DNA of 64,000 bases. It comes from Limosilactobacillus reuteri (GTDB lineage Bacteria; Bacillota; Bacilli; Lactobacillales; Lactobacillaceae). Under the pieces are notes generated by a model. The model was not told where the DNA came from, ran no database searches, and saw only the letters and a list, made by a program, of their open reading frames with translations. Both the position numbers and the translations under genes were made by a program. Where the stretch lies: assembly GCF_013694365.1 (NCBI RefSeq), contig NZ_CP059275.1, forward strand, positions 1,798,001 through 1,862,000, given 5' to 3'. Shown here in pieces: positions 222 through 64,000 of the stretch (the first letter of the stretch is position 1; every line of letters begins with the position of its first letter).

Positions 222-334
222 TATAATTGTTAAGATATCGTGGAAATCAACCACAAGGCTCGAGGCTAAGTCCGAACGATAATCAGCCCGTGCCGTGCTA
301 ATTACCATTCTATCCTTAGCCCACCGCCTTGTCG

Positions 335-340
335 AGGAGG
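335..340 (+). promoter_or_regulatory. AGGAGG Shine-Dalgarno-like site deciding the nucleoside hydrolase start
   Basis: AGGAGG lies inside the longer reading frame that opens with TTG at 329, which argues against TTG as the start. The ATG at 359 begins a normal family N-terminus. The spacing of 18 nt is long, so either the site is not ideal or the leader was altered by the nearby mobile-element end. Confidence 0.5.
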
Positions 341-358
341 TTAATTCCCACTTACTTT

Positions 359-1321
359 ATGGCAAAACGTAAAATGATTCTTGATTTAGATACTGGTGTT
401 GATGACGCTTTAGCTATTGCCTATGCGCTCGCTGACCCAGAAGTTGATCTAATCGGAATTGTAAGTTCATATGGTAACAACCTATTAGATGTTTGTGCCG
501 AAAACAGCCTTAAGTTATTGGAATTATTAGGTCACACTGATATTCCAGTATTTAAGGGTCTTCCACATTCATGCACTACTGACCACTTTGATGTAATGCA
601 AGTTTCAAAGGATATCCACGGTGATAACGGTATCGGTGATGTTGAATTACCTGCGCCAAGTCGGGCTCTTGAAGAACAATCCGGTGTTGATTTCTACATC
701 GAAGCCGCTCACAAGTATGGCAAGGACTTAATCATCATCCCTACTGGTCCAATGACTAACTTAGCTGCTGCTTTGAAGAAGGATCCTGAAATTGCTGACT
801 TGATTGGTAATGTCACATTCATGGGTGGTGCCTTAACTGTTGAAGGTAATGTTACTCCTGTCGCAGAAGCTAACATTAACCAAGACCCAAAGGCTGCCGA
901 TGAAGTAATGAAGTCCAATTTGCCACTTACGATGGTTGGTCTTGATGTTACTCTTCGTACTCTTCTTACTAAGAACGAAACAAAGCAATGGCGTGAATTA
1001 GGCACTGCTTCCGGTAAGGCTTTTGCTGATATTACCGACTTCTACATCGACGCTTACTACAACCTTGATATTGATAAGCGTGGTTGTGCCCTCCACGATC
1101 CATTAGCTGTTGGTGTTGGTATTGACCCATCATTTGTTTCAACTATTAGCTTATTCATGAAGGTTGTTTACCAAGAAGGACCTTACTATGGTCGGACAAT
1201 CGGTGACAACGCTAAGTTAAACGATCCTAACCCTAATGTTAAGGTTGCCGTTAACGTTGACAAAGAACGTTACCTCAAGGCCTTCATGGACCGCCTAAAC
1301 AAGCTTTTCAAAGAAAATTAA
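359..1321 (+). CDS. Nucleoside hydrolase (inosine-uridine preferring type)
   Basis: This enzyme hydrolyses the N-glycosidic bond of ribonucleosides to base plus ribose in the cytoplasm, for purine/pyrimidine salvage. The N-terminal calcium-binding signature D11-T-G-V-D15-D16 of the family is intact. The C-terminal HDP motif (CALHDPLAV) supplies the catalytic-site histidine and aspartate. Length, 320 residues from the ATG at 359, is normal. A frame opening at TTG 329 would add ten residues across the AGGAGG site and is rejected. Substrate preference cannot be read from the sequence. Confidence 0.9.
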   Translation: MAKRKMILDLDTGVDDALAIAYALADPEVDLIGIVSSYGNNLLDVCAENSLKLLELLGHTDIPVFKGLPHSCTTDHFDVMQVSKDIHGDNGIGDVELPAPSRALEEQSGVDFYIEAAHKYGKDLIIIPTGPMTNLAAALKKDPEIADLIGNVTFMGGALTVEGNVTPVAEANINQDPKAADEVMKSNLPLTMVGLDVTLRTLLTKNETKQWRELGTASGKAFADITDFYIDAYYNLDIDKRGCALHDPLAVGVGIDPSFVSTISLFMKVVYQEGPYYGRTIGDNAKLNDPNPNVKVAVNVDKERYLKAFMDRLNKLFKEN

Positions 1322-2320
1322 ATGGCAGAGAAAATTTACGATGTGACAATTATTGGTGGAGGTCCAGCGGGGATGTTTGCTTCATTTTATTGCGGCCTTC
1401 ATGAATTAGATGCCCAGCTAATTGAAAGCCTTCCACAACTTGGCGGACAAGTAGGGGCACTCTATCCTGAAAAACAAGTTTGGGATGTAGCGGGAATGCC
1501 AGGTGTAACTGGACATGACCTAATTGCTAAGCTAGAAGAGCAAATGGCAGTGGCACCGATTGACCAATTCCTCGGTGAAACTGTTGAGGACGTCATTAAA
1601 AAAGACGATGGAACCTTTACCATCAAATCAGCAAAGCGGGTATCCCGGTCACGAGCAGTAATCATTGCTCTTGGTAACGGGGCGTTTACTCCGCGTAAGC
1701 TTGCTTTAGAGGGAGCAGCTGAGATTGAAGGCAAGCAGCTTTCATATTTTGTTAATCATAAAGCTGATTATGCGGACAAGCGGGTTGCCATTCTTGGTGG
1801 GGGCGACTCCGCGATTGATATTGCCTTGATGCTTGAACCCGTTGTTAAGGAAGTCCACCTTGTCCATCGGCGGGACCAGTTCCGCGGTCTGGAGCATACT
1901 GTAACTCAGCTTAAACAGTCATCTGTACAACTGGATACGCCTTTCTTACCACGCGCATTAACGGTGGAAGACGATGAAACGGTAACGCTTGATCTTAAGA
2001 AGATGCGTAGTGACGACGAAGCACAATTGAATGTGGATAAGATTGTGGTTAACTATGGCTTTACTTCTAACAATGCGGCCTTAAATCAGTGGTCCCTTGA
2101 CTTAGCAGCAGAGCGCAACTTGATCAAAGTCGATTCAATGATGGAGACCAGTGTTGAAGGGGTATATGCGATCGGGGATGGTGTGACCTACCCGGGGAAA
2201 GTCGCATTGATTACGGCCGGCTTTGGTGAAGCACCGACAGCGGTAACCGCCCTAGCTAAGAAACTCTATCCCGATAAGCGAATGGCAATGCACAGCTCTT
2301 CAATGGGGATTACTAAATGA
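1322..2320 (+). CDS. Ferredoxin/flavodoxin-NADP+ reductase, thioredoxin-reductase-like (YumC type)
   Basis: This flavoprotein shuttles electrons between NADPH and ferredoxin or flavodoxin. An FAD-binding dinucleotide fold opens the protein (GGGPAG at residues 12-17). A second GGGDSAID fold near residue 158 binds NADPH, and a C-terminal YAIGDG segment completes the FAD site. The CxxC redox pair of thioredoxin reductases is absent at the expected place, which separates it from TrxB. Length 332 residues is typical. Its ATG directly follows the stop of the preceding gene with no ribosome binding site. Confidence 0.88.
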   Translation: MAEKIYDVTIIGGGPAGMFASFYCGLHELDAQLIESLPQLGGQVGALYPEKQVWDVAGMPGVTGHDLIAKLEEQMAVAPIDQFLGETVEDVIKKDDGTFTIKSAKRVSRSRAVIIALGNGAFTPRKLALEGAAEIEGKQLSYFVNHKADYADKRVAILGGGDSAIDIALMLEPVVKEVHLVHRRDQFRGLEHTVTQLKQSSVQLDTPFLPRALTVEDDETVTLDLKKMRSDDEAQLNVDKIVVNYGFTSNNAALNQWSLDLAAERNLIKVDSMMETSVEGVYAIGDGVTYPGKVALITAGFGEAPTAVTALAKKLYPDKRMAMHSSSMGITK

Positions 2321-2740
2321 TTGACTCCAAATAAGACTGAAGCACTAGAATTTAGATACTTCGATAAAGATAAAAAAGTACTCTATAATGATTATTATAT
2401 TTTTAACGCTACAAACACTTTATTGCGCCAACATTTCAGTATTGCATATATTGGAAGAGACGCGCAGGGAGCCCGACCACTTAAAGTAGTAAGCTTAAAG
2501 AAAGCCAAAAAATTATATCGTCAAAACAAACATTACTCGCTTTATGTTAGAAAAAGGGATGCAATAGTAAATGGTCCCCAAAGGGTAATTATAAGAGATG
2601 GTGCCAAGACGATTTCTATGAATCCTGGTAGACATGATAAGATTTACCAACGAGAAAGGGACTCTTGTGTGGTCAAAGGCAATAAACAAGTAAAATTCAT
2701 CAAAATTCAGACGTTAATTTTGATTGATAACTATAATTGA
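2321..2740 (+). CDS. Hypothetical protein, 139 residues
   Basis: I do not recognise this protein. It is basic (many K and R), has no signal peptide or membrane segment, and predicts mixed alpha/beta structure with repeated Tyr-rich strands (YFDKDKK, YNDYYIF, YSLYVRKR). The start is TTG, which together with the abrupt beginning suggests it could be the C-terminal part of a longer protein whose 5' part is missing. AT-rich composition resembles accessory DNA. Confidence 0.5.
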   Translation: MTPNKTEALEFRYFDKDKKVLYNDYYIFNATNTLLRQHFSIAYIGRDAQGARPLKVVSLKKAKKLYRQNKHYSLYVRKRDAIVNGPQRVIIRDGAKTISMNPGRHDKIYQRERDSCVVKGNKQVKFIKIQTLILIDNYN

Positions 2741-3277
2741 ATGTGTAAGAAATTGCCAGAGAACTATGAAAAGGCCCTCGAAAAGTGGGAAAAGATGACT
2801 ATTACGAGTGATCCAATGTTCGGGATGGTTATGCAGAATAAAGAAATTTGTTTAGAATTGATTAATCGTGCATTACCCCATTTAAAGGCAACTCAAATCG
2901 TCCAGTTAACAACTCAAAAAGATATTAATGTCGTAGCTGGCCGGCGCGTCCGTTATGATGTTTATGTGCAGGATGAAGATGGCAACATTATTGTTATTGA
3001 GATGCAGGTAGCTGACCGACAGAATTTGCCTTATCGCTTGCGGTATTGTCAAGAGCAAATAGATCATGGATTACTCTTGCCGGGCAAGGATTATCGCGAT
3101 TTAAGTCTTCATCCGACCTATGTGCTCATGTTTTGTGATTTTGATTATTTTGGCTATGGTTGGGCCCGTTATGTGTTTGAAATGGCGTGTACTTGTAATC
3201 ATCAGTTGAAATTAGGCGACCAACGGACAGTTGTGATCTTTAATGCCTTGGCTAAAGAATTTACTAAAGATGAGTAG
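2741..3277 (+). pseudogene. Rpn-family PD-(D/E)XK nuclease/transposase, N-terminal part
   Basis: The protein starts as in Rpn/PDDEXK transposase-like proteins: an N-terminal segment (TSDPMFGMVMQNKEICLELINRAL) and the nuclease core near residues 65-90, where RVRYDVYVQDEDGN and VIEMQV give the D...E-x-Q signature. Family members are about 290-310 residues and promote recombination by DNA cleavage. This ORF stops at residue 178 inside the family. The next ORF continues the same protein after a gap of roughly 20 residues, so the gene is broken by a nonsense or frameshift change with the middle missing here. Confidence 0.75.
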
Positions 3278-3565
3278 ATGCGTAATCGAGTAGACAATAA
3301 GAGTAAGTTTATTACTAAGATTCAAGACGAGATTATTAAGATTAAGCAGGAGCCAGAGAGGAGACGAGGCTTTATGAAGTTCGAGCTTGATTTAATGGAC
3401 GCACGGCGAGAAGAAAGAGAAGAGTCGAAACAAAAATTAGTTAAGTTTTTAGCCAGTCAAAAGACTGCACCGTCAGAAATAGTGGCCGCTCTCGTTAATG
3501 TTTACCAAATGCCAGAAAAAACGGCTCGAGAATATGTTGCAGAGCATGTAAAGACTCCAAAGTAG
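3278..3565 (+). pseudogene. Rpn-family nuclease/transposase, C-terminal part
   Basis: These 95 residues (VDNKSKFITKIQDEIIKIKQ, then a charged helix rich in RREERE, then a small helical C-terminus) are the usual tail of the Rpn-family protein begun at 2741. Together the two pieces make 273 residues, slightly short of the family. The ATG used here is probably an internal methionine rather than a real start. Confidence 0.7.
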
Positions 3566-4213
3566 ATGGCACAGAAGATTGAGAATTTTATTTTTGATAT
3601 TGACGGCACTTTAATTGATACTATTGATATGTATATGCCAGCAATGATTGATGTTTTAGCTCAACATGGTCACCCAGTTGCACCCGACAAAGTAGAGCAA
3701 ACTAAGCATGACTTATTTGGTATTACGGGACAAGATGCCCTCCGTCTTGCTGGAATTAGTGAGGATGAAATTCCGGCGATCCAACAAGACTGGTTTAAGC
3801 TGGCTTATCAACGTGCTGATCAAGTAAAAGTGATTGAAGGAATTCCGGAAATGCTTAATACCCTTGCCAATCGTGAAGATGCAAGGATCGCCATCGCAAC
3901 TTCAAAACTCGCTGACGAATACCAAGAATACTTCGTTAACAAATATGACTTTGCAAAGTTATTTAAGGTTGCCATTACGTCTGCTGATACTAAAAAGCAT
4001 AAGCCAGCTCCAGATCCTATTTTAGCGGCAATGGATAAAATGGGAGCAGATCCCGCCACTACTGTTTATGTTGGAGACACGATCAATGATATGAAAGCCG
4101 CCCATGCAGCTGGTGCCAAGTTTGCAGGCGCCCTTTACTCTTCTGCAAATCCCGATAGTATTAAAGATGCGGACTTCCCATTAATGAAGCCCGCTGATCT
4201 CTTAGAAATTTAA
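3566..4213 (+). CDS. HAD-superfamily hydrolase, phosphoglycolate-phosphatase-like
   Basis: This is a soluble phosphatase of HAD subfamily I with all four motifs. D11-I-D13-G-T holds the nucleophile and general acid, IAIATSK gives motif II, the lysine of KHKPAPDP gives motif III, and VGDTINDMKAA gives motif IV. A helical cap of about 65 residues sits after motif I. The 215-residue length fits phosphoglycolate phosphatase, pyrophosphatase PpaX or beta-phosphoglucomutase relatives. The true substrate cannot be told from sequence. Confidence 0.85.
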   Translation: MAQKIENFIFDIDGTLIDTIDMYMPAMIDVLAQHGHPVAPDKVEQTKHDLFGITGQDALRLAGISEDEIPAIQQDWFKLAYQRADQVKVIEGIPEMLNTLANREDARIAIATSKLADEYQEYFVNKYDFAKLFKVAITSADTKKHKPAPDPILAAMDKMGADPATTVYVGDTINDMKAAHAAGAKFAGALYSSANPDSIKDADFPLMKPADLLEI

Positions 4214-5236
4214 GTGGTCATTATCAGTAATCAAAAATCAGTACCTAAAGAGCTATCATTCATTTCGATTTACTTTTTAGGAATTAATGGAGTAATTGGT
4301 TCAGGAACATTTTTACTGCCATCTGTTATTTATCGGTACATGAACTTATCGGCTGTAGCAGTTTTGCTATGTACAGCAATAACCGTTTCATTGATCGCCC
4401 TATGTTATGCCGATCTTTCTAGTCGTTTTACCGGCTCAGGTGCAGCATGGCTTTATTCTTATCATGCATTTGGCCGATTTACCGGTTATGAGTTAGGGAT
4501 TTTTACCTGGTTCTTAGGCTGCTGTACCCATTCAGCGGAAATTGTTGCCTTATTAACTACCCTCAAGAACTTTTTGCCAATCTTTAATCGGCCGCTTATC
4601 TATGGAGCCGCTGCTTTTGGCTTAATTGTGCTCTTTGCAGTTATTAATTTCTTCGGCCACGGCCTTGTTAAACTGGTTAATAATGTATCAGCGGCTGCGA
4701 AGATCCTTACGCTGATCATCTTTATTGTCGTTGGGGTCTTCTTCATCCATAAAGCTAACTTCTCACCAGTGATTCCCCAAGCAGCTTTAAAGGGACCAAT
4801 GTCATTTATTCATCATTTTGGTGAAGCCTTTACCCCGATCTTTTATCTTTTTACTGGTTTTTCATTTTTACCAATTGCTGCTAAGCAAATGAAGAATCCA
4901 GAAAAGAATATTCCTCGGGTGTTAATTGCAGTCATGGTTAGTGTAACTATTTTGGATGCATTGATGATGACCGTTGCCGTTGGACTTTCCGGGACTAAAT
5001 TAGGCGGCTACTCGACACCACTGGCTAATGCTTTGGGAGGTGCCCTTGCGAAAGGACTCGGAACCACTATTGGTAAGTGGGGATATGCCTTTATTATTTT
5101 CTGGATGCTTGTAAGTATCTTTGGGGTCGCCTTTTCATCTTCGTTTAACACGCCATCGTTAATTACTTCAATGGCCAATGAGCACGGCATGTTGCCAAAG
5201 TTTATTGGGAAGAAGAATAAGCATGATGCCCCATGA
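4214..5236 (+). pseudogene. APC-family amino-acid permease, N-terminal three quarters
   Basis: This is a polytopic inner-membrane permease of the amino acid-polyamine-organocation family. The TM1 signature GINGVIGSGTF binds substrate backbone in relatives. About nine hydrophobic segments follow in 340 residues, whereas complete members have 12 segments and about 450 residues. The frame ends just after the TM8-9 region (MLPKFIGKKNKHDAP). The following small ORF carries a final membrane helix and a charged tail, so the gene appears split with its TM10-11 region absent. Substrate is unknown. Start codon GTG. Confidence 0.75.
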
Positions 5237-5416
5237 ATGGTTACTAATTTTACGGCTAAGACCTTGCTTGTCGGAACTGTCATCGCCATTCTTGCCGCGG
5301 CAGCATACTTCTTTATCAAGAAAGATCGTAGTTATGAAGAAAAGCATGTAGAATGGCTTGATGACTTGCGATTAAAAGATGAAAAAGAAGGACTCCTAGA
5401 TAATCAGAAAAAATAA
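5237..5416 (+). pseudogene. C-terminal fragment of the APC permease
   Basis: These 59 residues comprise one hydrophobic helix (TLLVGTVIAILAAAAYFFI) followed by a charged cytoplasmic tail ending DNQKK. That is the usual last helix and tail of an APC transporter. It directly follows the truncated permease in the same direction, so I read the two as halves of one disrupted gene. It could also be a small independent membrane protein, but the composition makes that less likely. Confidence 0.6.
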
Positions 5417-5884
5417 ATGAAATATCAAGAAACCAAAGAAACACTTAATCAATTAGTTGCTGATCTGAGTCAAATGGCAATGATAATTCATCAAACTCAC
5501 TGGTATATGCGTGGCACTAACTTTCTAAAGCTTCACCCATTAATGGACCAATTTATGGATGAAATCAACGATCAACTTGATGTAATATCTGAACGATTAT
5601 TAACTCTCGACGGTGAACCTTATTCGACCCTTAAAGAAGTCGCAACCCATACGAAAATTAAAGACTGGCCAGGAAACTTTGATAAAACAACGCCAGAACG
5701 GCTTGCGCATTTAGTCGCTGGTTATCGTTATCTTGAGGACCTTTATCAGCATGGAATTGAAGTGACTGACATTGAAAAAGATTATTCTACCCAAGATATC
5801 TTCATTGGATTTAAGACGGCAATTGAAAAGAAAATCTGGATGCTGCAAGCAGAATTAGATCAGGCACCAGAAATTGACAACTAA
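5417..5884 (+). CDS. dps: Dps-family ferritin-like DNA-protection protein
   Basis: Dps forms a dodecamer that oxidises and stores iron and shields DNA in stress. The intersubunit ferroxidase ligands are all present with family spacing: H28, H40, D44, D55 and E59 (segments HQTHWYMRG, LHPLMDQF, QLDVISERLL). Length 155 residues is normal. There is no long basic N-terminal tail, so DNA binding by the tail type seen in E. coli is not expected. Cytoplasmic. Confidence 0.93.
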   Translation: MKYQETKETLNQLVADLSQMAMIIHQTHWYMRGTNFLKLHPLMDQFMDEINDQLDVISERLLTLDGEPYSTLKEVATHTKIKDWPGNFDKTTPERLAHLVAGYRYLEDLYQHGIEVTDIEKDYSTQDIFIGFKTAIEKKIWMLQAELDQAPEIDN

Positions 5885-8548
5885 ATGAAAGAAAATTATC
5901 AACTAACAACTGACGAAATAAAGAAAGAATACCAATTAACTGATTTTACTCACGGCCTATCAACCCAAGCTGTCGAAAAACGGCTTGCCGATGAAGGACG
6001 TAATATCATTGAAGTAAAACCAACGCCCAAGTGGAAACTATTCTTACGCCAGTTTAACAATATTGTTATCTATATTTTATTAGCCGCTACTTTACTGACC
6101 GTTTTAATTGGTCACTATACTGATGCGATTGTTATCGGGGCGGTTGTCATTCTAAACGCGCTCATTGGTTATTTCCAAGAATCAAGCGCAGCGAATGCCC
6201 TCGCCAAAATTAAAGAGATGATGGCGCAACATGCCACCGTCTACCGGGATGGTAAACGACAAGATATTGATGCCGCGGATCTTGTCCGTGGGGATGTTGT
6301 TTTCCTCGAAGCCGGTGATAATGTACCAGCTGACTTACGGATTGTCTCAGCTGATAACTTACGAATTGAAGAATCGGCTTTAACCGGTGAAACTAATTCG
6401 GTTATCAAAACTGATGAAGCAATTACCGACCAAGACGTTCCTCTCGCTGATCGTGTTGATATGGCATATGCTTCGACTTCAGTTACAAGCGGAAGTGGCC
6501 TAGGAGTTGTAGTCGCAACTGGTGAACAAACCGAAATTGGTAAGATTTCACAAGAAGTTGCGCAAATCAAGCCAAAGAAGACCCCATTAACTAAAGAAAT
6601 TGACCATGTTGGAAAGGTCGTTTCTTACATTACAATTACTGCTTCAGTGATTGTTTTCGTTGTCGGTTTCTTCCTCGAAATTTACTCCTTGCCTGCCCTT
6701 GCGCTTGCAGTCGTGGCAATGTTGGTTGGTGCGATCCCAGAAGGTTTGCCTGCAATTACCTCTGTTATCTTAGCCTTTGGTATTAGCAAAATGGCCAAAG
6801 AGCATCAGACAATTATCAAATCAATGCCTGCTGTTGAAACATTAGGCTCGGTCGATGTTATTGCTACTGATAAAACAGGAACTCTTACCAAAAACGAAAT
6901 GACCGCCATTGAGTTATGGGTCGGCGATAAACACTACACGGTTACCGGAACTGGTTATGCTCCTAATGGTGAGATTCTCTTAAATGACAAACCAGCTCAA
7001 CTGACAGATCAGCTCAAACTTTTCTTAGAGGCTGGATATCAAGCAAATGATACGGCTTTAACTGATGAAGACGGCACCTGGCATATTAATGGTGAACCGA
7101 CTGATGGAGCCTTCTTAACTCTTTATCACAAAGCGTTTGGGGCTAAATATCAATCGCCATATAAAGCTGTTGACCTCCTTCCATTTGATTCTGATTACCG
7201 TTATATCGCTGAATTAACTCGTGATCCAGAAGATAAACAACAAGTAATCTTTGTTAAAGGATCTCCAGACAAGCTCTTTGAAATGGCCACAAAGGAAGAT
7301 CCACAATTTGATACTGCCAAGTGGCAACAACGGGTAGATGACTGGTCCAAAGCCGGAAAACGAGTTATTGCGGTTGGCTATCAACCTGTTAATGGCAAAA
7401 ATCTAATAGAAGTCGAACATGACCACCTCTACAGGGGAATTCACTTACTTGGCTTAGCTGCTCTTCAAGACGCACCACGCGAAGAAGTGATTGTTGCGTT
7501 AAAGCAAATGAACCGTGCTGGTGTTTCCGTTAAAATGATTACGGGGGATGACCCGCAAACCGCCCGTGCAATCGGTAAGCAACTAGGCTTATCGACGGGC
7601 CCGATCAACGCAATCACAGGTGCAGAATGGGATAAACTTTCTGCCAGTGAACGAGAAGAGGCCGCTTTAGATAACCAAGTCTTTGCGCGGACAACTCCAC
7701 AAAACAAGCTTGAAATTATTGAAGCGCTCCAAAACCGGCAAAAGATCACCGCGATGGTTGGGGATGGAGTTAACGATGCACCCGCCTTAAAGAAAGCCGA
7801 TATTGGGATTTCAATGGGGATCAAGGGAACGGACGTCGCTAAAGATGCTGCCGACATGATCTTAGGAAATGATAACTTTGCGGTAATGGCTGCTGTTATC
7901 AAAGAAGGTCGGCGAATTTACGACAATATCAAAAAGAGTATCTTATTCTTATTACCAACCTCCTTTGCTGAAGGATTGGTGGTTGCCTTCTCCATTCTTA
8001 CTGGTCAGCAAGTTCCCCTCCAACCAGCTCAGCTATTGTGGATTAACTTAATCGCCGCAATCACTATCCAGTTTGCGTTCGTCTTTGAAAAAGCAGAAAA
8101 AGGCATCATGGATCGCAATCCGCGTCCTGTGACCCAACGATTAATGAATCGACATGATTTAATCCAGATGGGTTATGTCTCAGCCTTAATGGCGCTGTTC
8201 GCCTTAATTGGTTACGAATGGTTCATCAGTGCTGGGGCAGACGTTGTCAACGCTACAACAATGATGGTTAATACCATTGTTATTAGTAAGGCCTTCTACT
8301 TCTTCAGCATTCGAACTGAACGATATGGACTAAAAGAAGTTGGAAATATTGGCAAGAAAGCCTGGGGCGTTATTGGATTGATGATTCTTTTCCAATTGAT
8401 CTTCACCTACGTTCCATTTATGCAGGCTGCCTTCCACGTGACCGGAATAAGTTTACTGGAATGGCTAGCAGTAATTGTCTTCTCTTGCTTAATCTTCTTA
8501 TGTACTGAATCTGATAAAATGATTCGTTTCCGTCTAAATCGACGGTAA
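5885..8548 (+). CDS. P-type cation-transporting ATPase (P2/calcium-ATPase type)
   Basis: An ATP-driven cation pump of 887 residues. Domains in order: cation_ATPase_N (about 1-70), TM1-2, actuator domain with LTGET near residue 168, TM3-4 with P285-E-G-L-P289, phosphorylation site D329-KTGTLT, nucleotide-binding domain, hinge MVGDGVNDAPAL, and a C-terminal membrane bundle. The PEGLP motif in TM4 is that of SERCA/PMR1-type Ca2+ pumps and of related Na+/K+ types. Calcium export is the best guess, but the ion is not proven. Start ATG directly abuts the dps stop. Confidence 0.9.
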   Translation: MKENYQLTTDEIKKEYQLTDFTHGLSTQAVEKRLADEGRNIIEVKPTPKWKLFLRQFNNIVIYILLAATLLTVLIGHYTDAIVIGAVVILNALIGYFQESSAANALAKIKEMMAQHATVYRDGKRQDIDAADLVRGDVVFLEAGDNVPADLRIVSADNLRIEESALTGETNSVIKTDEAITDQDVPLADRVDMAYASTSVTSGSGLGVVVATGEQTEIGKISQEVAQIKPKKTPLTKEIDHVGKVVSYITITASVIVFVVGFFLEIYSLPALALAVVAMLVGAIPEGLPAITSVILAFGISKMAKEHQTIIKSMPAVETLGSVDVIATDKTGTLTKNEMTAIELWVGDKHYTVTGTGYAPNGEILLNDKPAQLTDQLKLFLEAGYQANDTALTDEDGTWHINGEPTDGAFLTLYHKAFGAKYQSPYKAVDLLPFDSDYRYIAELTRDPEDKQQVIFVKGSPDKLFEMATKEDPQFDTAKWQQRVDDWSKAGKRVIAVGYQPVNGKNLIEVEHDHLYRGIHLLGLAALQDAPREEVIVALKQMNRAGVSVKMITGDDPQTARAIGKQLGLSTGPINAITGAEWDKLSASEREEAALDNQVFARTTPQNKLEIIEALQNRQKITAMVGDGVNDAPALKKADIGISMGIKGTDVAKDAADMILGNDNFAVMAAVIKEGRRIYDNIKKSILFLLPTSFAEGLVVAFSILTGQQVPLQPAQLLWINLIAAITIQFAFVFEKAEKGIMDRNPRPVTQRLMNRHDLIQMGYVSALMALFALIGYEWFISAGADVVNATTMMVNTIVISKAFYFFSIRTERYGLKEVGNIGKKAWGVIGLMILFQLIFTYVPFMQAAFHVTGISLLEWLAVIVFSCLIFLCTESDKMIRFRLNRR

Positions 8549-9460
8549 ATGAAACAAGGCACTAAAATTATTACCCTTGATAACGGCTATCATCTGTGGA
8601 CGAATACCCAAGGTGAAGGTGATATTCATTTATTAGCTTTGCATGGGGGGCCTGGTGGCAATCATGAATACTGGGAAGACGCTGCTGAACAATTAAAGAA
8701 GCAAGGTCTTAACGTTCAAGTAACAATGTATGATCAATTAGGTTCACTATATTCTGATCAACCAGATTTTTCTGACCCTGAGATTGCGAAGAAGTACCTT
8801 ACTTACGAATATTTCCTTGATGAAGTAGATGAAGTACGAGAAAAGCTTGGCTTAGACAATTTCTATCTTATTGGTCAAAGTTGGGGTGGCCTTTTAGTTC
8901 AAGAATACGCTGTTAAGTATGGCCAACATCTTAAGGGCGCAATTATTTCTTCAATGGTTGACGAAATTGATGAATATGTCGACCGGGTTAATGAATTACG
9001 GGAAAAGACCCTTTCTCCAGAAGCAGTTGCCTTTATGAAAGAATGCGAAGCCAAGAACGATTACAGTAATCCTAAGTATCAAGAATACGTTCAAGTAATG
9101 AATGAACAATACGTTGACCGGAAGCAGCCATCCAAGCTTTATCATCTTAAAGACCTTGGCGGCACAGCGGTTTACAACGTCTTCCAAGGTGATAACGAAT
9201 TTGTGATTACCGGTAAGCTTAAAGACTGGCATTTCCGTGACCAATTGAAGAATATTAAGGTGCCAACTTTAATTACATTTGGTGAACACGAAACGATGCC
9301 AATTGAAACTGCTAAGACAATGAATAGTCTCATTCCAAATTCACAGTTAGTTACTACTCCCGATGGTGGTCACCACCACATGGTAGATAACCCCGATGTT
9401 TATTACAAGCACCTCGCTGACTTCATTCGGAATGTTGAAAATAATACGTTTAATAATTAA
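8549..9460 (+). CDS. pepI: Proline iminopeptidase (alpha/beta hydrolase)
   Basis: PepI removes N-terminal proline from short peptides in the cytoplasm, part of the lactobacillar casein-peptide utilisation system. The oxyanion-hole motif HGGPGG is near residue 32 and the nucleophile elbow is G109-Q-S111-W-G-G. A GGHHHM segment near residue 271 provides the catalytic histidine. Length 303 residues matches lactobacillar PepI. Its neighbour pepX encodes another proline-specific peptidase, which agrees functionally. Confidence 0.88.
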   Translation: MKQGTKIITLDNGYHLWTNTQGEGDIHLLALHGGPGGNHEYWEDAAEQLKKQGLNVQVTMYDQLGSLYSDQPDFSDPEIAKKYLTYEYFLDEVDEVREKLGLDNFYLIGQSWGGLLVQEYAVKYGQHLKGAIISSMVDEIDEYVDRVNELREKTLSPEAVAFMKECEAKNDYSNPKYQEYVQVMNEQYVDRKQPSKLYHLKDLGGTAVYNVFQGDNEFVITGKLKDWHFRDQLKNIKVPTLITFGEHETMPIETAKTMNSLIPNSQLVTTPDGGHHHMVDNPDVYYKHLADFIRNVENNTFNN

Positions 9461-11863: not shown

Positions 11864-11879
11864 TTTTATCCATAAATTT

Positions 11880-14053: not shown

Positions 14054-14083
14054 GTGGATAAACTGTGGAAGGTAGTGGATATC

Positions 14084-22916: not shown

Positions 22917-22963
22917 TCAAAAGAGACTGGGAATTAACTATTAATTCTTGGTTCTCTAACAGT

Positions 22964-53334: not shown

Positions 53335-53336
53335 TT

Positions 53337-53466: not shown

Positions 53467-53510
53467 ATATGTCCAAGACGCTCCAGTCAATTCAATGTGA
53501 TTAAGTTGTC

Positions 53511-53592
53511 GAACCGCCGTATACGGAACCGTACGTACGGTGGTGTGAGAGGTCGATAATTGAACTAATCAATTATCTCCTACTCGATTCTA
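53511..53592 (+). mobile_element. Group II intron 3' end (domains V and VI)
   Basis: Domain V: ACCGCCGTA (53513-53521) pairs with TACGGTGGT (53536-53544), the inner stem TACG/CGTA has a GAAC loop, and the typical two-nucleotide bulge CG lies at 53534-53535. Domain VI: GATAATTG (53555-53562) pairs with CAATTATC (53570-53577). The 3' end CTCCTACTCGATT is the common bacterial ending. No reverse transcriptase/maturase or domains I-IV are in the window, so this is an orphan 3' end. Confidence 0.85.
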
Positions 53593-53598
53593 TTTAAT

Positions 53599-56500: not shown

Positions 56501-56769
56501 CACAAACAGCATCGCACTTTAAGGATAACGGCATTCACGTCCATCAAAAAATATCTAACATTGATGAACTCAACCGACTCTTAAAAGCCGGGCAAATCGA
56601 TCTTGTTATCAACACTATGCGCCATGATTATGAACAAGATTCACTTGGCTTTCAGATCCGCCAAAGTACAATCGCGCAAAATGTTCCCCTCATGACTTCA
56701 CTTGATACAGTCAATGCGTTGCTGCACGTTAAAGAAGATCAATCTTTGGAAGCCATCACAATTAAATAG
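53599..56769 (+). CDS. carB: Carbamoyl-phosphate synthase large chain
   Basis: Makes carbamoyl phosphate from bicarbonate, ATP and CarA-derived ammonia for pyrimidine and arginine synthesis. Length 1056 with the internal duplication of ATP-grasp halves: [17 protein letters not shown] near residue 13 and [16 protein letters not shown] near residue 557, each followed by ATP-grasp signatures ([32 protein letters not shown]), and an MGS-like allosteric domain at the end. Its first 8 nt (ATGCCTAA) duplicate the last 8 nt of carA. Confidence 0.96.
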
Positions 56770-57858
56770 ATGAAACGATATTTAATTCTAGAAGATGGTA
56801 CTGTCTATACCGGCGAGGGTTTTGGCGCTACCAAGGCAACTCTTGGTGAGGTTGTCTTCACAACAGGGATGGTCGGCTATCAAGAAGCAATTACCGATCA
56901 ATCATTTGCCAATCAGATTTTAGTCTTTACCAATCCTCTCATCGGTAACTATGGGATTAATAGTGAAGATAACGAAACATTGTATCCCCAAATCAAGGGC
57001 ATAATTTGTCATCATGTCGCTCGTGTTCCCAGCAACTGGCGCATGACTGACTCGCTCCCTAATTTCTTAGCAAAGCACCACATTCCTGGCCTCCAAGGAA
57101 TTGATACACGTGAACTAGTCCGTAAGCTTCGTCAATATGGAACATTGCGCGGAATTATGACCGATAATGTTACCGATATCAAAGATAAGCTTGAACAGTT
57201 AAAACAAACTTCGCCAACCCAGAACATTATTAGCAAAGTATCTACTAAAGAATCCTACGCTAATCCGGGAACTAAGCGAACTGTAGTTGTTCTTGACTTC
57301 GGAATGAAAAATAGCATTCTCCGTGAATTAAATAAAAGAAACTGCAATGCAATTGTCCTTCCTTATAACGCCTCGATCAGTGAAATAATGGCGTTCAATC
57401 CAGACGGCATCCTCCTTTCGAACGGCCCTGGTGATCCACTTGAAATGACAACTATTGCGGAAACTGTCGCAGAATTAGAAAAACATGTGCCCATTTTCGG
57501 CATTTGCATGGGCCATCAAATCTTTGCCCTAGCTAATGGTGCTAAAACTTATAAGATGAAATTTGGTCACCGCGGTTTTAACCATCCTGTCCGTAATCTT
57601 AAAACAGGAAAAATCGCATTTACCTCTCAAAATCACGGTTTTGCGGTTGATCCATCCTCCATTGATGATACTGACCTCCAAATCACCCACCTTGAAGTGA
57701 ACGATGGCACAGTTGAAGGACTCCAGCATTCAAAGTATCCTGCATTTTCCGTTCAGTTCCATCCAGACGCTGCGCCAGGACCCCACGATGCTGAACAGCT
57801 TTTTGATAAATTCATGGCATTAATTGACAGTAATAAGGAGGCCCTCACCTATGCCTAA
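56770..57858 (+). CDS. carA: Carbamoyl-phosphate synthase small chain (glutamine amidotransferase)
   Basis: Hydrolyses glutamine and channels ammonia to CarB. N-terminal CPSase small-chain domain (1-150) and class I amidotransferase domain with nucleophile C246 (FGICMGHQ) and H331 (QFHPDAAPGPHD). The triad acid is D333 instead of the usual Glu (HPEA), a conservative but notable change. Length 362. AGGAGG at 57836-57841 followed by ATG 57851 is the native start site of carB inside the carA end; in this window carB is placed before carA instead. Confidence 0.94.
   Translation: MKRYLILEDGTVYTGEGFGATKATLGEVVFTTGMVGYQEAITDQSFANQILVFTNPLIGNYGINSEDNETLYPQIKGIICHHVARVPSNWRMTDSLPNFLAKHHIPGLQGIDTRELVRKLRQYGTLRGIMTDNVTDIKDKLEQLKQTSPTQNIISKVSTKESYANPGTKRTVVVLDFGMKNSILRELNKRNCNAIVLPYNASISEIMAFNPDGILLSNGPGDPLEMTTIAETVAELEKHVPIFGICMGHQIFALANGAKTYKMKFGHRGFNHPVRNLKTGKIAFTSQNHGFAVDPSSIDDTDLQITHLEVNDGTVEGLQHSKYPAFSVQFHPDAAPGPHDAEQLFDKFMALIDSNKEALTYA
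57836..57841 (+). promoter_or_regulatory. AGGAGG ribosome binding site of carB, inside carA
   Basis: The site lies 9 nt before ATGCCTAA (57851-57858), which is both the end of carA and identical to the first codons of carB at 53599. It shows that carB natively starts here, overlapping carA. Confidence 0.8.
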
Positions 57859-59232
57859 ATGAGTCAAGATGAGTCTGTCGTACTTAACCAAGACCAAGAA
57901 ACTTCGACGAGTGGATTGCCAATTTTACCAAAGAGTACCATCTGGATGATTAACTTTGGTTTCCTTGGGGTTCAAATCGCCTTTACGTTACAAGGTTCAC
58001 AAATGAGCCGGATCTTCCAAACAATTGGTGCTAATCCTAATAATTTGGGATGGTTCTTCTTACTTCCGCCACTTGCAGGATTGATCGTGCAGCCAATCAT
58101 TGGTTATTATTCTGACCGAACATGGGCGCCAAAACTTGGTGGTCGGCGTCTCCCCTACCTGTTAATCGGGATGGTCATTGCCGTCATCGTTATGATTTTA
58201 CTGCCTAATTCAGGAAGTTTTGGATTTGGATACGGTTCGTTAGCAGCCCTCTGGTTTGGGGCTATTACCGTCGCCTTCCTTGATCTTTCATCAAATATGG
58301 CGATGCAGCCATTTAAGATGATGGTTGGTGATATGGTTAACGATGATCAAAAGAGTTATGCATACGGGATTCAAAGTTTAATCTGTAATACCGGTGCCGT
58401 TTTAGCAGCCATTTTCCCATTCCTTTTGACATGGTGGGGTATATCAAACACTGCTAAAAAGGGTGTTGTTCCTCAATCAGTTGTAATTTCGTTCTACGTT
58501 GGCGCTGTTATTTTAGTCATCACCTGTCTCTTTACTATCTTCCGGGTTCACGAATATGATCCCGCAACTTATGCTCGTTACCATGGTATTTCAGAGGAAG
58601 ACAATAAAAAAGGTGGAAACTGGTTTACCCTCTTAAAGCATGCTCCACGAGTATTTTGGAATGTCGCATTAGTTCAATTCTTCTGCTGGTTCTCTTTCCA
58701 ATACCTTTCAACTTATGCGGTCGGGGCCATCGCTAAGAATGTTTGGTTAACAACGGATGCTTCTTCTGCTGCCTACCAAGCTGCCGGTAACTGGTACGGT
58801 GTTATGACCGCTGTTCAATCAATTGCAGCAGTTGTATGGTCATATGTTCTGGCTAAAGTTCCTAATAACCACCACAAAGCTGGCTATGCTTTCAGTCTTT
58901 TGCTTGGGGCTGTTGGATACACATCAATCTTCTTTATCCATTCACAAAACGCCCTTATCTTCTCCTTCGTTTTGATCGGAATTGCTTGGGCTTCAATGAA
59001 CACCTACCCATTAACAATGGTTACAAATGCCTTATCTGGTAAACACATGGGTACTTACCTTGGCCTATTTAATGGTTCAATCTGTGTACCACAAATGGTT
59101 GCCTCACTACTTAGTTTTGGTCTCTTCCCATTACTTGGTAGTTCCCAAGTCAACATGATGCTTGTTACCGGTATTTCTGCTCTCTTAGGTGCAATTTCAG
59201 TTCTCTTTATCAAGGAAACTTACCAAGCCTAA
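57859..59232 (+). CDS. MFS sugar transporter (GPH/SLC45-like)
   Basis: A 12-helix major facilitator of 457 residues. The N-terminus MINFGFLGVQIAFTLQGSQMSRIFQTIG and the LAGLIVQPIIGYYSDRTW loop are characteristic of the group that imports sucrose or maltose-type sugars. The loop after TM6 is long (RVHEYDPATYARYHGISEEDNKKGG). A LacI-type regulator follows, as expected for a sugar uptake unit. Confidence 0.85.
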   Translation: MSQDESVVLNQDQETSTSGLPILPKSTIWMINFGFLGVQIAFTLQGSQMSRIFQTIGANPNNLGWFFLLPPLAGLIVQPIIGYYSDRTWAPKLGGRRLPYLLIGMVIAVIVMILLPNSGSFGFGYGSLAALWFGAITVAFLDLSSNMAMQPFKMMVGDMVNDDQKSYAYGIQSLICNTGAVLAAIFPFLLTWWGISNTAKKGVVPQSVVISFYVGAVILVITCLFTIFRVHEYDPATYARYHGISEEDNKKGGNWFTLLKHAPRVFWNVALVQFFCWFSFQYLSTYAVGAIAKNVWLTTDASSAAYQAAGNWYGVMTAVQSIAAVVWSYVLAKVPNNHHKAGYAFSLLLGAVGYTSIFFIHSQNALIFSFVLIGIAWASMNTYPLTMVTNALSGKHMGTYLGLFNGSICVPQMVASLLSFGLFPLLGSSQVNMMLVTGISALLGAISVLFIKETYQA

Positions 59233-60234
59233 ATGAAGCCAACAATTAAAGATATTGCTCAACGGGCCCACGTTTCAACGGCCACTGTTTCTCGTGTTTT
59301 ATCCAAAAAGGCGAAATCCTACCGTCCCGAAACCGCGGCTAAGATTGAAGCAATCGCTAAAGAACTAGGATACAAGAAAAACCTTGCAGCGGCTGAATTA
59401 GCTGCCAATAGTAGTATGTTAATTGCCGTTATCTTAAATAATACTCAAACGAATTTCTCAAATGATATCATCGCTGCTATTCAAGCAGAAACAGATAAAG
59501 CTGGTTACCAAATGTTTATTCTTTACGCTGGAAACCATAACGCCCGACTGCTTAATCAAGCAATTAGCGTTGCCCTCGAACGGCATGTTGCCGGCATTCT
59601 GCTAGTCGCAACCTCCCTCGACGAACAAGCAGCTCGCACCTTACAAGAAAGCAATACCCCTTGTCGGTTAGTATCGGTCTATGACGAAACTGATTCCCGA
59701 TATATTGGATTTAAATTTACAAGTTCAAATAACGAGGAAATTGGTTATTCAGCCGCTAACTATTTAATTGAACGAGGACACTCACGGATTGGATTAGCCG
59801 GCATCGATCGTTCTTCAACCGGTAAGCAACGACTTCAAGGCTACCAACGGGCAATGACTGAACACGGATTAATCCCTCATATGGGATGGGTCGAATATGG
59901 GGATTACAGTTTTGGTCCTCAGCAAAATATGCTCAAAACACTAATGAATAAGAATCTTGACGCGATCATCACAGCTAGTGATATGGTGGCTGTGGGCATG
60001 ATCAGAGAGGCTCATTTGCTAGGCCTTGATATTCCAAAAGACCTATCATTTATTAGTATCGATGGGACTTTTCTCTGTGATATTACCATCCCAACTATTA
60101 CAAGCGTAACTCAGGACTTTTATCAAATGGGACTCATCGCAGTTAGGAGCCTATTGAACGATGATGACTCACAATTTATTCCAATCCATATCACACCGCG
60201 AAATAGCGTAAGACTCCTAGGCAAGAAACATTAG
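59233..60234 (+). CDS. LacI-family transcriptional regulator
   Basis: A sugar-responsive repressor of 333 residues. The N-terminal helix-turn-helix and hinge (TIKDIAQRAHVSTATVSRVL; residues 3-22) is followed by a periplasmic-binding-like effector domain (AVILNNTQTNFSNDIIAAIQ ... GIDRSSTGKQRLQGYQRAM ... DLSFISIDGTFLCDITIP). It probably controls the neighbouring MFS transporter. The effector sugar is not deducible. Confidence 0.92.
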   Translation: MKPTIKDIAQRAHVSTATVSRVLSKKAKSYRPETAAKIEAIAKELGYKKNLAAAELAANSSMLIAVILNNTQTNFSNDIIAAIQAETDKAGYQMFILYAGNHNARLLNQAISVALERHVAGILLVATSLDEQAARTLQESNTPCRLVSVYDETDSRYIGFKFTSSNNEEIGYSAANYLIERGHSRIGLAGIDRSSTGKQRLQGYQRAMTEHGLIPHMGWVEYGDYSFGPQQNMLKTLMNKNLDAIITASDMVAVGMIREAHLLGLDIPKDLSFISIDGTFLCDITIPTITSVTQDFYQMGLIAVRSLLNDDDSQFIPIHITPRNSVRLLGKKH

Positions 60235-61641
60235 ATGACACAAACTAAACAACATGAACAAGATGTTGATGTATGGGTTGGGAAACGATTCCCCCTCACA
60301 ATTCGTCGCCTAGGCGTTAACGGGCACGGAATCGGCTACTATAAGCACAAGGTATGTTTTGTCCCTGGTGCCCTGCCAAATGAAGTCGTAGTCGCGGAAG
60401 TTACACGCGTTCTCCCACGCTATCTTGAAGCTAAAATTCACCGGATCCGGAAAAAGAGTCGGGATCGGGTAACGCCACGAGATGAGTACGCTGATATCGC
60501 TGGTGGTTTTGAACTTGAAAACCTCGCTTACCAACAACAATTAAAGTTTAAACGGCAAGTAATCATCGATAGTCTCGAAAAGTTTCAACCATACGGCTAC
60601 CGTAATTACGATGTTCGCCCAACTATTGCAGCCCCTGAAGAATACGGTTACCGTAACAAGGCCCAGTTTCAAATCCGAATGGTCAATGGCAAAGTAGCAG
60701 CCGGTCTTTACCAGCCAAACAGTCATACCCTCGTTGATATGGAGACTTGTGCTGTTCAAATGCCCCGTACAATGGAGACAGTTCGAGCAGTTACGAAGAT
60801 GATCGAAGACTTGCAAATCCCAGTTTATGATGAAAAGAACAATAGCGGTATCATCAAAACCTTAGCAGTCCGTGAATCATGGTCAACTGGGGAAGTCCAA
60901 TTAACCTTCATTACTAATTCTGCTAAACTTCCTCACAAACGCGAATTGCTTGAACGCATTGAAAAAGAACTACCAGCAGTTGTTTCAGTTATGCAAAACG
61001 TTAACCCAGGTGATACACCCTTAATTTGGGGTGATAAAATGATCCACCTCGCTGGAAAAGATTCAATCCTTGAAAGCTTGATGGGACTCGATTTCAAACT
61101 CTCAGCACGTTCATTCTTACAACTAAATCCTGAACAAACAGAAGTGCTGTACGAAGAAGCTTCTAAAGCCCTTGAATTGGACAAAGATGATACCTTAATT
61201 GATGCATATGCCGGGATCGGGACAATCGGCCTTTCACTTGCATCGCGGGTAAAATCTGTTTGCGGAATGGAAATCATCCCCGAAGCGGTGGCTGATGCTA
61301 ACGAAAATGCCAAGCTAAATAATATTACTAACGCTAAATATGAAGTCGGCAAAGCAGAAGAAGTTCTTCCCCGCTGGCAAAAAGAAGGACTCAACTTTGA
61401 TGCCCTTGTTGTTGATCCTCCGCGAACCGGGTTAGATGACCAATTAATCAAGCAAATCTTAAAAGTTAAGCCGCGAAAGTTTGCCTACGTCTCATGTGGT
61501 ATGGCTTCTCTTGCCCGTAATTTACGGCGGTTAACTAGTGTCTATCACGTTGACTACATTCAACCAATTGACATGATGCCCCAAACAGCACGCTGTGAGG
61601 CAGTCGTGAAATTATCATTACGAAACGGAAATAAAGAATAG
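60235..61641 (+). CDS. rlmD: 23S rRNA (uracil-C5)-methyltransferase, RlmD/RlmCD type
   Basis: Methylates U1939 (and in Gram-positives often U747) of 23S rRNA. It has an N-terminal TRAM RNA-binding domain (LTIRRLGVNGHGIGYYKHKV), a central FxLN segment SARSFLQLNPEQTEVLYEEA, the SAM site DAYAGIGTIGL, DPPRTGL, and the nucleophile Cys in YVSCGMASLARNL. The residue after the nucleophile is Gly instead of the usual Asn. No clear Fe-S cysteines are visible, as is common in Firmicutes members. Length 468. Confidence 0.9.
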   Translation: MTQTKQHEQDVDVWVGKRFPLTIRRLGVNGHGIGYYKHKVCFVPGALPNEVVVAEVTRVLPRYLEAKIHRIRKKSRDRVTPRDEYADIAGGFELENLAYQQQLKFKRQVIIDSLEKFQPYGYRNYDVRPTIAAPEEYGYRNKAQFQIRMVNGKVAAGLYQPNSHTLVDMETCAVQMPRTMETVRAVTKMIEDLQIPVYDEKNNSGIIKTLAVRESWSTGEVQLTFITNSAKLPHKRELLERIEKELPAVVSVMQNVNPGDTPLIWGDKMIHLAGKDSILESLMGLDFKLSARSFLQLNPEQTEVLYEEASKALELDKDDTLIDAYAGIGTIGLSLASRVKSVCGMEIIPEAVADANENAKLNNITNAKYEVGKAEEVLPRWQKEGLNFDALVVDPPRTGLDDQLIKQILKVKPRKFAYVSCGMASLARNLRRLTSVYHVDYIQPIDMMPQTARCEAVVKLSLRNGNKE

Positions 61642-62214
61642 TTGAAAATTGCTGCAATTGCCGGGTCAAATGCTAATCATTCATACAACCGGATGTTATT
61701 AGAATTTATTGCCCGTCATTTTAGTGATGATGATATTGATGTGATTGATATTCGTCAAGTGCCAATGTTTAATGAAAATTATAAGGGAAAGATTCCTGAG
61801 GTTGTTGCTGATATTGATCGTCGTGTTTCAAGCGCCGATGCTGTTATTATTGCCAGCCCAGAATACAACCACTCTGTTACCTCTGCTTTAAAGTGTGTAA
61901 TTGAATGGCTTTCCTATGAAGTTCATCCATTAGAAAATAAGCCAGTCATGATCATCGGTGCTTCTACCCATGACCAAGGCTCATCCCGTTCTCAAGTTCA
62001 ATTACGAGATATTTTGATCTCACCAGGTGTTAATGCTTATATTTTCCAAAACGAAGAGTTCTTTATGAGTGATGCCGATCATATCATTGATAAAGATGGT
62101 GACATTACTAACGAAACGACTATTCATTTCTTAGAAAAATGTATGCGTGAATTCAAACACTACGCCAAGGCAATCAATCGGATGGTTGCTGAAAAGAAGG
62201 AGGCGAAGAAGTAA
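61642..62214 (+). CDS. NADPH-dependent FMN reductase
   Basis: A flavodoxin-fold reductase of 190 residues: phosphate loop GSNANHSYNRMLLEFIA, FMN-contact stretch SPEYNHSVTSALKCVIEWLS and a GASTHDQGSSRSQVQLRDIL loop. The start is TTG. It is a paralogue of the N-terminal half of the next gene. Together with the ApbE gene downstream it belongs to a flavin-handling cluster, and probably supplies reduced flavin or electrons. Confidence 0.88.
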   Translation: MKIAAIAGSNANHSYNRMLLEFIARHFSDDDIDVIDIRQVPMFNENYKGKIPEVVADIDRRVSSADAVIIASPEYNHSVTSALKCVIEWLSYEVHPLENKPVMIIGASTHDQGSSRSQVQLRDILISPGVNAYIFQNEEFFMSDADHIIDKDGDITNETTIHFLEKCMREFKHYAKAINRMVAEKKEAKK

Positions 62215-63465
62215 ATGAAAATCCTTGCTTTAGTTGGAACTAATGCCAATTTCTCATATAACCGGATTTTGCTTAAATACATGAAAAAGCACTTCCGTCA
62301 AATGGCTGATATTGAAATTGCTGAAATTAGCCAATTGCCACCATTTAGCGTTGATACCCCTCTTTCTGAACAAACAGAGGTATGGAAGTTAAAGCAAAAA
62401 GTTAAGGCTGCAGACGGAGTTATTTTCTCAACTCCTGAATATGACCATGGGATTCCAGCAGCCTTAAAGAGTACAGTAGAATGGCTTTCTTACAAGACTG
62501 ATGTATTAAAACGCAAGCCAGTTATGGTTGTCGGTGTATCTTATGGACGCCAAGCTTCTGCAAGATCTCAAGTTCAAATGCGGCAGATTCTGGTTTCTCC
62601 TGATTGTGATGCTAACCTATTACCAGGAAATGAAGTTCTGATTGGTAATGCTAGTCATTCCTTCTCCAAAGACGGTCGGTTAATTAATGCCGAAGCACGT
62701 GATAACCTTGAAAACTGCTTTACCCATTTTGTGGAATACATTCAAATCTTTGAAAATGCAAATAAGGAGGGACTGGATATGTCCGTTAAACAACCAACGA
62801 TCAGTGAAGCTTACATTAATTTCCCTACTGGTCGGTTGACATTAAAAGAAGTTCAACAAATCTTCAGTACAATCCCATTTGAAATTGACTTAATTGACAG
62901 TACTGACCATTTCGCATGGTTCTCTGACAAGCCAAATCGGGAACACGTTCGGAATGTAGCTTCTCTCGGGGAAACTGTTCAAGAATGTCATCCACCGTTG
63001 GCTGTTCCGGTTGTTATGAAGATTATTAACAGTTTCCGGAATGGTGAAAAAGACGTTGTTACCCGTCCATTATGGATGAATGGTCACCGTTCATTGATTC
63101 AATACTACGCTTTACGTGATGTTAATGGTCATTACCTTGGAACCATCGAATTTACTGGTAGTGTGGAATACATTCTTAACCTCTTCGAAAATGGTGCATG
63201 GAGTACTGATGGTAACACTGGTGCATCTAAGCATGAGGATGCTAATGACAACAGTGAAGAAGCTGACAGCGTTGATGCATCAACTGGTGCTTCAGAATCA
63301 AGTGATGATGATAACACCGACAATGCTAGTGAAGTGGTTACAACCCCAGCACCAGCAACAAACGATGATACTGATGCGGACGCTACAACAGGCGTATCAG
63401 ATGCAGGCAGCGTAGACGCAAATGATGATGAGGCAGATGCTACAACAGGTGCATCCGAAAACTAG
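62215..63465 (+). CDS. FMN reductase-PAS fusion with acidic tail bearing four candidate flavinylation motifs
   Basis: Residues 1-180 form an NAD(P)H:FMN reductase (GTNANFSYNRILLKYMKKHF, TPEYDHGIPAALKSTVEWLS). Residues about 190-330 form a PAS_10/DUF438-like domain (SEAYINFPTGRLTLKEVQQI ... GHYLGTIEFTGSVEYILNLF). The final 85 residues are acidic and disordered and hold four D-x-x-T-G-(A/V)-S motifs: D332-GNTGAS338, D354-ASTGAS360, D389-ATTGVS395 and D408-ATTGAS414. ApbE enzymes attach FMN to the last Thr/Ser of such motifs, and an apbE gene comes next. An in-frame AGGAGG plus ATG at 62779 (M189) could start the PAS part separately. No signal peptide, so cytoplasmic. Confidence 0.85.
   Translation: MKILALVGTNANFSYNRILLKYMKKHFRQMADIEIAEISQLPPFSVDTPLSEQTEVWKLKQKVKAADGVIFSTPEYDHGIPAALKSTVEWLSYKTDVLKRKPVMVVGVSYGRQASARSQVQMRQILVSPDCDANLLPGNEVLIGNASHSFSKDGRLINAEARDNLENCFTHFVEYIQIFENANKEGLDMSVKQPTISEAYINFPTGRLTLKEVQQIFSTIPFEIDLIDSTDHFAWFSDKPNREHVRNVASLGETVQECHPPLAVPVVMKIINSFRNGEKDVVTRPLWMNGHRSLIQYYALRDVNGHYLGTIEFTGSVEYILNLFENGAWSTDGNTGASKHEDANDNSEEADSVDASTGASESSDDDNTDNASEVVTTPAPATNDDTDADATTGVSDAGSVDANDDEADATTGASEN
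62765..62770 (+). promoter_or_regulatory. Internal AGGAGG before in-frame ATG at domain boundary
   Basis: AGGAGG is 8 nt from ATG 62779, which is in frame (residue 189, MSVKQPTISE) and exactly between the reductase and PAS domains. It could yield a 228-residue second product of PAS domain plus tail, or mark an ancestral gene fusion. Confidence 0.6.
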
Positions 63466-64000
63466 ATGAATAATGAATTGATGGCGCAGCGGCATGTGAT
63501 GACTCATCACGCTCTCGGAACTCGCATAAATTTAACGATTTTTGGCAACAAATACTTTTCATTGTTAAAGAAATCAATGGACCTAATTGACCACTATGAG
63601 GACCGATTAACGGTTAACCGTAATGAATCAGAAGTGATGTCGGTGAACCATGGTGCAGGGAAAACTCCGAAAATGGTATCGCCAACGACTTTTGACCTCA
63701 TTGAGCTGGCAGTGAAATATAGTCGTGAAAACTTTGGCTTTAACGCTTTGATTGGCCCGTTAGTAAAATTATGGAAAATCGGTTTTGCAGGGGCGCACGT
63801 GCCAAGTGATGCTGAGATCAAAGAGCGGTTGAAGTTGATCGACCCTTATAAAGTATTGCTGAACCGAGAAGCACGGACGGTATATTTAGAAGAGCCGGGG
63901 ATGGAATTAGACCTTGGCGGAATTGCGAAGGGCTATATTGCGGACCGTATTCGGGATCTTTGGATTGAAGCTGGAGTTCCCGCGGGAATTATCGACTTAG
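63466..64000 (+). CDS. apbE: FAD:protein FMN transferase ApbE (3' end beyond window)
   Basis: ApbE transfers FMN from FAD to Thr/Ser of target proteins. The visible 178 residues contain the N-terminal GTRINLTIFG strand, YEDRLTVNRNESEVMSVN (family F/Y-D-x-x-x-S...SExxxxN pattern), the FGFNALIGPLVKLWKIG segment and ELDLGGIAKGYIADRIRD with the conserved GGIAKG loop. There is no signal peptide or lipobox, so it should work in the cytoplasm on cytoplasmic targets. The Mg-binding C-terminal region lies outside the window. Confidence 0.93.
   Translation, partial: MNNELMAQRHVMTHHALGTRINLTIFGNKYFSLLKKSMDLIDHYEDRLTVNRNESEVMSVNHGAGKTPKMVSPTTFDLIELAVKYSRENFGFNALIGPLVKLWKIGFAGAHVPSDAEIKERLKLIDPYKVLLNREARTVYLEEPGMELDLGGIAKGYIADRIRDLWIEAGVPAGIIDL

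Follow-up and report, generated by a model that had tools for sequence, protein, structure and literature searches.

The gene order of a 64-kilobase window in a Limosilactobacillus reuteri record reads as joined annotation features, not as chromosomal DNA

The window analysed here is a stretch of 64,000 nucleotides, positions 1,798,001 to 1,862,000 of the Limosilactobacillus reuteri record NZ_CP059275.1 (assembly GCF_013694365.1), which consists of one contig of 2,085,667 bases with a completeness of 100 and a contamination of 0.96. Its genes include a yycH-like gene, walK, walR, a transfer RNA (tRNA) gene, tRNA-Lys, and carB and carA; the label yycH is one that we presume, and walK, walR, carA and carB are labelled as in an earlier note on this DNA. 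The subject of this report is how these genes are arranged. A list curated by hand holds 72 features between 359 and 63465, comprising 71 coding sequences (CDS), one of them 5'-partial, and one tRNA gene. Every one of the 72 lies on the + strand, as the earlier note had claimed for all genes from 359 on. The gap is zero at 66 of the 71 junctions, and a 73rd open reading frame (ORF) opens at 63466, again with a gap of zero, and closes past the window end. Two zero-gap junctions are not of the stop codon to start codon type: walR meets tRNA-Lys at 22843/22844, the tRNA beginning one base after walR as had been reported, and at 41082/41083 a 5'-truncated relaxase piece begins. The five non-zero junctions measure 285, 268, 2277, 258 and 264 bases; four of them consist, except for 5 bases, of repeat copies (defined as copies of at least 95% identity, sought in 31% of the record), while the 2277-base junction is a serine-rich tract. 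The claim of an exact zero gap is therefore upheld for most junctions and not for every one. Two further details of the first description required adjustment: the first gene starts at 359 with ATG, the ORF listed at 329 being opened by an upstream TTG, and the serine-rich tract contains a minus-strand ORF, 30653-31840.

The layout was re-counted with an uncurated, greedy ORF picker, for which 11 loci from Limosilactobacillus and its kin provided the native control. In the window 65 of 69 ORFs were on the + strand and the gap was 0 in 53 of 63 same-strand pairs, compared with 1 of 86 same-strand pairs in the native loci. The extent of the pattern was sampled by 20 stretches of 20 kilobases (kb) spaced along the whole contig. 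Nineteen of these displayed it, with a gap of zero in 307 of 358 same-strand pairs, the weakest being L025 (11 of 17) and L037 (13 of 20). Summed over the window and all 20 stretches, the gap is zero in 361 of 440 same-strand pairs. In the record sample (the window plus 23 record stretches) a second script, which steps from stop to start, counted 484 units at zero gap as opposed to 57 other blocks; the corresponding numbers were 7 and 305 in 17 partly redundant native loci (both strands). These data confirm that the zero-gap layout is real and far from chance, and support the view that the artefact discussed below reaches nearly all of the sampled record. All 36 tRNAs in the window and 29 record stretches are also on the + strand; clustered tRNAs are mostly within a few bases of one another, and would be weak evidence if taken alone.

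The window was compared with three relatives, L. reuteri WF-AA1-C (G018), L. balticus BG-AF3-A (G019) and L. caviae CCM 8609 (G020), using 48 of the 72 features; the genes of 23185-41907 were not included, as no shared neighbourhood is seen for them in the relatives. At a coverage of 80% or more of feature length, 36, 33 and 28 of the 48 features mapped to G018, G019 and G020, respectively. Features so mapped that lay in the same stretch, at most 3000 bases apart, yielded 30, 26 and 22 neighbour pairs, a total of 78 that are not independent cases as the three relatives share ancestry. Not one of the 78 pairs has a gap of zero; 70 are gapped and 8 overlap. In 17 pairs the two features are on opposite strands, in 42 they share a strand but their order is opposite to transcription, and in 19 both strand and order agree. 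The earlier note had proposed aligning the window to complete L. reuteri genomes for strand and gap; the three relatives compared here are ordinary genomes that resemble the window in holding many of its features in the same neighbourhoods, but differ from it in having mixed strands and a gap or an overlap at 78 of 78 junctions. In contig C34 of G018 the window genes of 12149-20269 occur in the same order, each on the minus strand, indicating that the genes were turned one by one. A natural inversion was considered and rejected, since a single inversion cannot keep the order of C34 while turning each gene. A 600-base query centred on the junction of yycH and walK was also sought in 50 genomes of the genus, including the record itself. 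Matches were found in 47 genomes, the record included; a one-piece match was seen in the record alone and in 0 of the 49 other genus genomes. In the 46 other matching genomes, none of the matches listed extends more than 10 bases past the junction. In three close genomes of 97-99% identity (G047, G049 and G050) about 2.5 kb separates the two halves, whose order is reversed.

Several junctions carry the same bases twice. The 23 bases at the yycH start (18974) recur at the end of walK (22113), 14 bases are doubled at 47762 and 47776, and 8 bases each at 36098 and 36106 and at 51599 and 51607. In the carB/carA pair the 8 bases ATGCCTAA are present at both 53599 and 57851. Two additional 4-base end matches may be due to chance and were left uncounted. 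For the first two of these pairs the native overlap measures 23 bases in all three relatives and 14 bases in both relatives to which the second pair mapped; in G020 carA natively runs into carB. Judging from the relatives, about 13 bases would natively separate walR and walK. A feature export writes the natively shared bases of overlapping genes twice, as is seen here. The overlaps also explain the ‘correct' ribosome sites that had been noticed inside upstream gene ends at 22098 and 57836. Each site serves the gene whose native start lies within the end of its partner, yycH within that of walK and carB within that of carA. Elsewhere the starts were said to lack ribosome sites of their own, and the counts bear this out. 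A Shine-Dalgarno core precedes the longest start in 22 of 405 ORFs of the record sample, versus 74 of 269 in the 17 partly redundant native loci; when any of the first six starts was allowed the numbers rose to 27 and 124, respectively.

Leaders and other unannotated DNA are likewise missing from the record, as judged by T-box elements. The whole record has 1 T-box match, below the family cut-off, versus 21-28 matches in ten Limosilactobacillus genomes: 21-26 in seven same-genus genomes, and 26, 26 and 28 in G018, G019 and G020, respectively. Four genomes of the same order contain 10-30. The sole match in the record overlies an ORF of 38 codons that has a gap of zero on both sides and is followed by a long ORF; it seems that a spurious CDS call carried part of a T-box leader along.

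Maximal exact repeats of at least 60 bases were counted in the last 307,667 bases of the record; an earlier count, which gave 5425 inverted pairs, was inflated by a long uniform run, and the repeats were re-counted without that run. Their lengths peak at 127, with 340 of 1288 pairs being 125-129 bases long, and the mean number of pairs per length is 8.5 at 100-124 bases and 1.2 at 130-154 bases. Minor peaks at 62, 65 and 71 bases shrink when the serine-rich tract is omitted, leaving 336 of 1100 pairs at 125-129. The pile-up at 125-129 looks like the contig ends of an assembly with k=127, a value that we take to be a sign of SPAdes or a similar program. Contig joins are recognised by intervals of about 127 bases, or of about 254 where two ends adjoin; within the window such intervals lie near 96, 23047, 42034 and 53465. 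From 1,840,000 of the record on, the spacing of such intervals (ignoring those less than 1000 bases apart) is about 11.5, 11.1, 10.8, 9.1, 10.3, 8.9, 7.4, 8.2, 7.9, 8.1, 8.3, 5.8, 6.7, 5.8 and 5.7 kb. This falling, if not strictly falling, series would be consistent with a list of contigs ordered by size from which intergenic DNA has been lost. Aside from the serine-rich tract, the window has 1433 non-coding bases, and copies cover 1428 of them.

Also retained is an interspersed repeat within runs of genes. In L096 and L099 a stop codon is followed directly by the repeat, the next start being 155 bases away in each case, and in L100 and L101 a start codon directly follows the end of the repeat. 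Of eight places examined, the remaining four have less tidy edges. It seems that repeats were exported as features. The repeat itself is non-coding, is about 155-190 bases long, contains an inner inverted motif around CAAGGCTCGAGGCTAAG and has many copies in the genome, among them window positions 226-358 and copies in L096, L097, L098, L099, L100 and L101. Something resembling it is also present 3' of tRNA-Lys in G018. Palindromic joints numbered 5 in L038, 2 in L073 and 0 in six native loci (a row dominated by the long uniform run was not used).

The record contains genes that have been turned singly, overlaps written twice, shared ends near 127 bases and repeats that were kept, and the intergenic DNA is gone. 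The probability is roughly 0.97 that, instead of being a chromosome, the record was concatenated from the annotation features of a fragmented short-read draft of a strain of the L. reuteri group. This agrees with the earlier proposal of features cut out and joined in sense orientation, which is borne out by the gaps, overlaps and mixed strands in relatives, by the doubled overlaps and by the near absence of leaders. Gene order here is an artefact of the record and not a biological feature, and the intact proteins look genuine. In the proposed sequence of events a draft of a Limosilactobacillus reuteri-group strain would have been assembled from short reads with a k of 127, its contigs being listed roughly by falling size, as the spacing suggests. 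The draft would then have been annotated, and the CDS, the RNA genes and, probably, the repeat-region DNA written in contig and coordinate order. Genes would have been written in sense orientation, after which the pieces would have been joined into one sequence. As to the program, a RASTtk-type feature set would fit. The description of one RASTtk-annotated SPAdes genome lists CDS, tRNA, rRNA (ribosomal RNA) and repeat regions (PMC8708206). A RASTtk/PATRIC-type export of feature nucleotides would comprise the kinds of piece that are retained here, namely CDS, RNA and repeats. Draft contigs joined as a pseudo-chromosome would resemble the record in the shared ends of about 127 bases at joins and in the tail of short repeats. 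However, plain joining of contigs, which accounts for the ends, neither turns genes nor strips the DNA between them, and was rejected.

Several observations weigh against this interpretation. Many of the shared ends are 125 or 126 bases long, which is shorter than 127. Among the 42 blocks (60-900 bases) of a wider sample, only 26 had copies over 80% or more of their length in the 31% of the record searched; partners in the other 69% of the record and wrongly called blocks, such as one inside a gene at 51055, may explain part of the shortfall. Within the tract at 30601-32877, copies account for just 872 of the 2277 bases. Finally, the last 20 kb at the 3' end of the record lack the pattern, with 1 of 19 same-strand pairs at gap zero. 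In its first 12 kb, short repeat pieces are heaped together, and several precede a reverse-complement copy of themselves; judged by eye, pieces of ribosomal RNA are among them.

Among the alternatives, the one that survives best is a variant of the artefact in which intergenic DNA within contigs was dropped, raw contig ends were kept and repeat features were not exported. The joins do hold contig ends, as this variant would predict, but it is nevertheless unlikely. The distance from a gene to the shared end is often only a few bases (from the tRNA-Lys end at 22916 to 22920, and from 53334 to 53338), a terminal 127-mer lies inside a turned partial gene (41082) and occurs again unturned (41908), and interspersed repeats within gene runs were kept while their flanks are gone (L096 and L099). 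There is a slimmer chance still that the public record is sound and that the fault was introduced when the sequence was prepared for the scan; other genomes from the same source look native, however, as the yycH/walK junction is found in 0 of 49 and 11 relatives contain 10-30 T-box matches. The layout as such would also suit a natural genome that packs its genes to an extreme, codes on one strand only and translates without leaders, yet such a genome has practically no probability given that relatives at 97-99% identity hold the yycH and walK halves 2.5 kb apart in opposite order, and given the doubled overlaps and the contig-end signature. The absence of any native pair at gap zero (0 of 78) and of the yycH/walK junction (0 of 49) led to its rejection, in line with the earlier view that leaderless translation on this scale is implausible. 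A designed or synthetic chromosome can be dismissed just as firmly, for although the gap-free, one-strand layout looks designed, ribosome sites were not supplied (22 of 405), and the record retains truncated pieces as well as a spurious ORF and, at its tail, scraps of repeats.

Feature concatenation makes gene order, strand bias, operons, promoters, riboswitches, ribosome sites and intergenic length unreliable when taken from this record, while its intact proteins can still be used. Filters based on scores would pass a record with this completeness, contamination and single contig; the 100% completeness score missed the fault. The record would be absorbed by surveys of synteny or regulation based on one genome per species, and a sequence model trained on it would learn false rules. 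It is about an even bet that the genome representing the species in the reference set is a gene concatenate, that more such records may sit unnoticed, completeness scores being counts of genes, and that the rate of zero-gap same-strand pairs would expose them in one pass.

Table 1. Layout of the window (positions are those of the 64,000-nucleotide stretch).
Feature	Position	Strand	Remark
Repeat pieces around contig join near 96	1-358		358/358 bases copied elsewhere at ≥95%; 254-base shared interval
12 CDS, gap zero	359-11863	+	Native order reversed, strands mixed in G018
Repeat pieces at contig join	11864-12148		285/285 bases covered by copies
12 CDS and tRNA-Lys, gap zero	12149-22916	+	Order as G018 contig C34, each CDS turned
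yycH-like (18974), walK (20270), walR (22136), tRNA-Lys (22844-22916)	within 12149-22916	+	
First 23 bases of yycH-like gene, present again at walK end (22113-22135)	18974-18996	+	Native overlap written twice
Two contig ends joined near 23047	22917-23184		255-base shared interval 22920-23174; 263/268 bases covered
12 CDS or CDS pieces, gap zero	23185-30600	+	
Serine-rich adhesin-like repeat tract	30601-32877		872/2277 bases covered by copies
12 CDS of plasmid- or mobile-element-like contig, gap zero	32878-41907	+	Last is 5'-partial Mob_Pre relaxase piece
Contig end repeating 32754-32880 (127 bases), then 127 bases of next contig's start	41908-42165		
16 CDS, gap zero	42166-53334	+	14-base native overlap doubled at 47762, 47776
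Two contig ends joined near 53465	53335-53598		256-base shared interval; 264/264 bases covered
carB, carA and further CDS, gap zero	53599-64000	+	carB, carA order opposite to native; last ORF passes window end

The contig at 32754-42034 opens (32754) and closes (42034) with one and the same 127-base sequence, unchanged in orientation, which is how circular molecules appear in such assemblies. It probably represents a mobile molecule that is circular and, with its intergenic DNA lost, about 9 kb in size. The contig encodes a DUF4368-type recombinase, a phage-type integrase, an Rce1-like CAAX protease and the Mob_Pre relaxase piece. In the neighbouring serine-rich tract the adhesin-like repeats are antisense to about 31970 and sense afterwards, with at least two abrupt joints. 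A contig-end piece elsewhere in the window contains, at 53512-53588, a group II intron end (Rfam RF00029, 49.5 bits); a mobile intron is probably among the causes of the breaks in the assembly. At 4214-5416 a gene that by eye resembles an amino-acid permease is split into two CDS, 4214-5236 and 5237-5416. The counterparts of the two pieces are 216 bases apart in both G018 and G020, and the gene may natively be one reading frame that carries a stop here.

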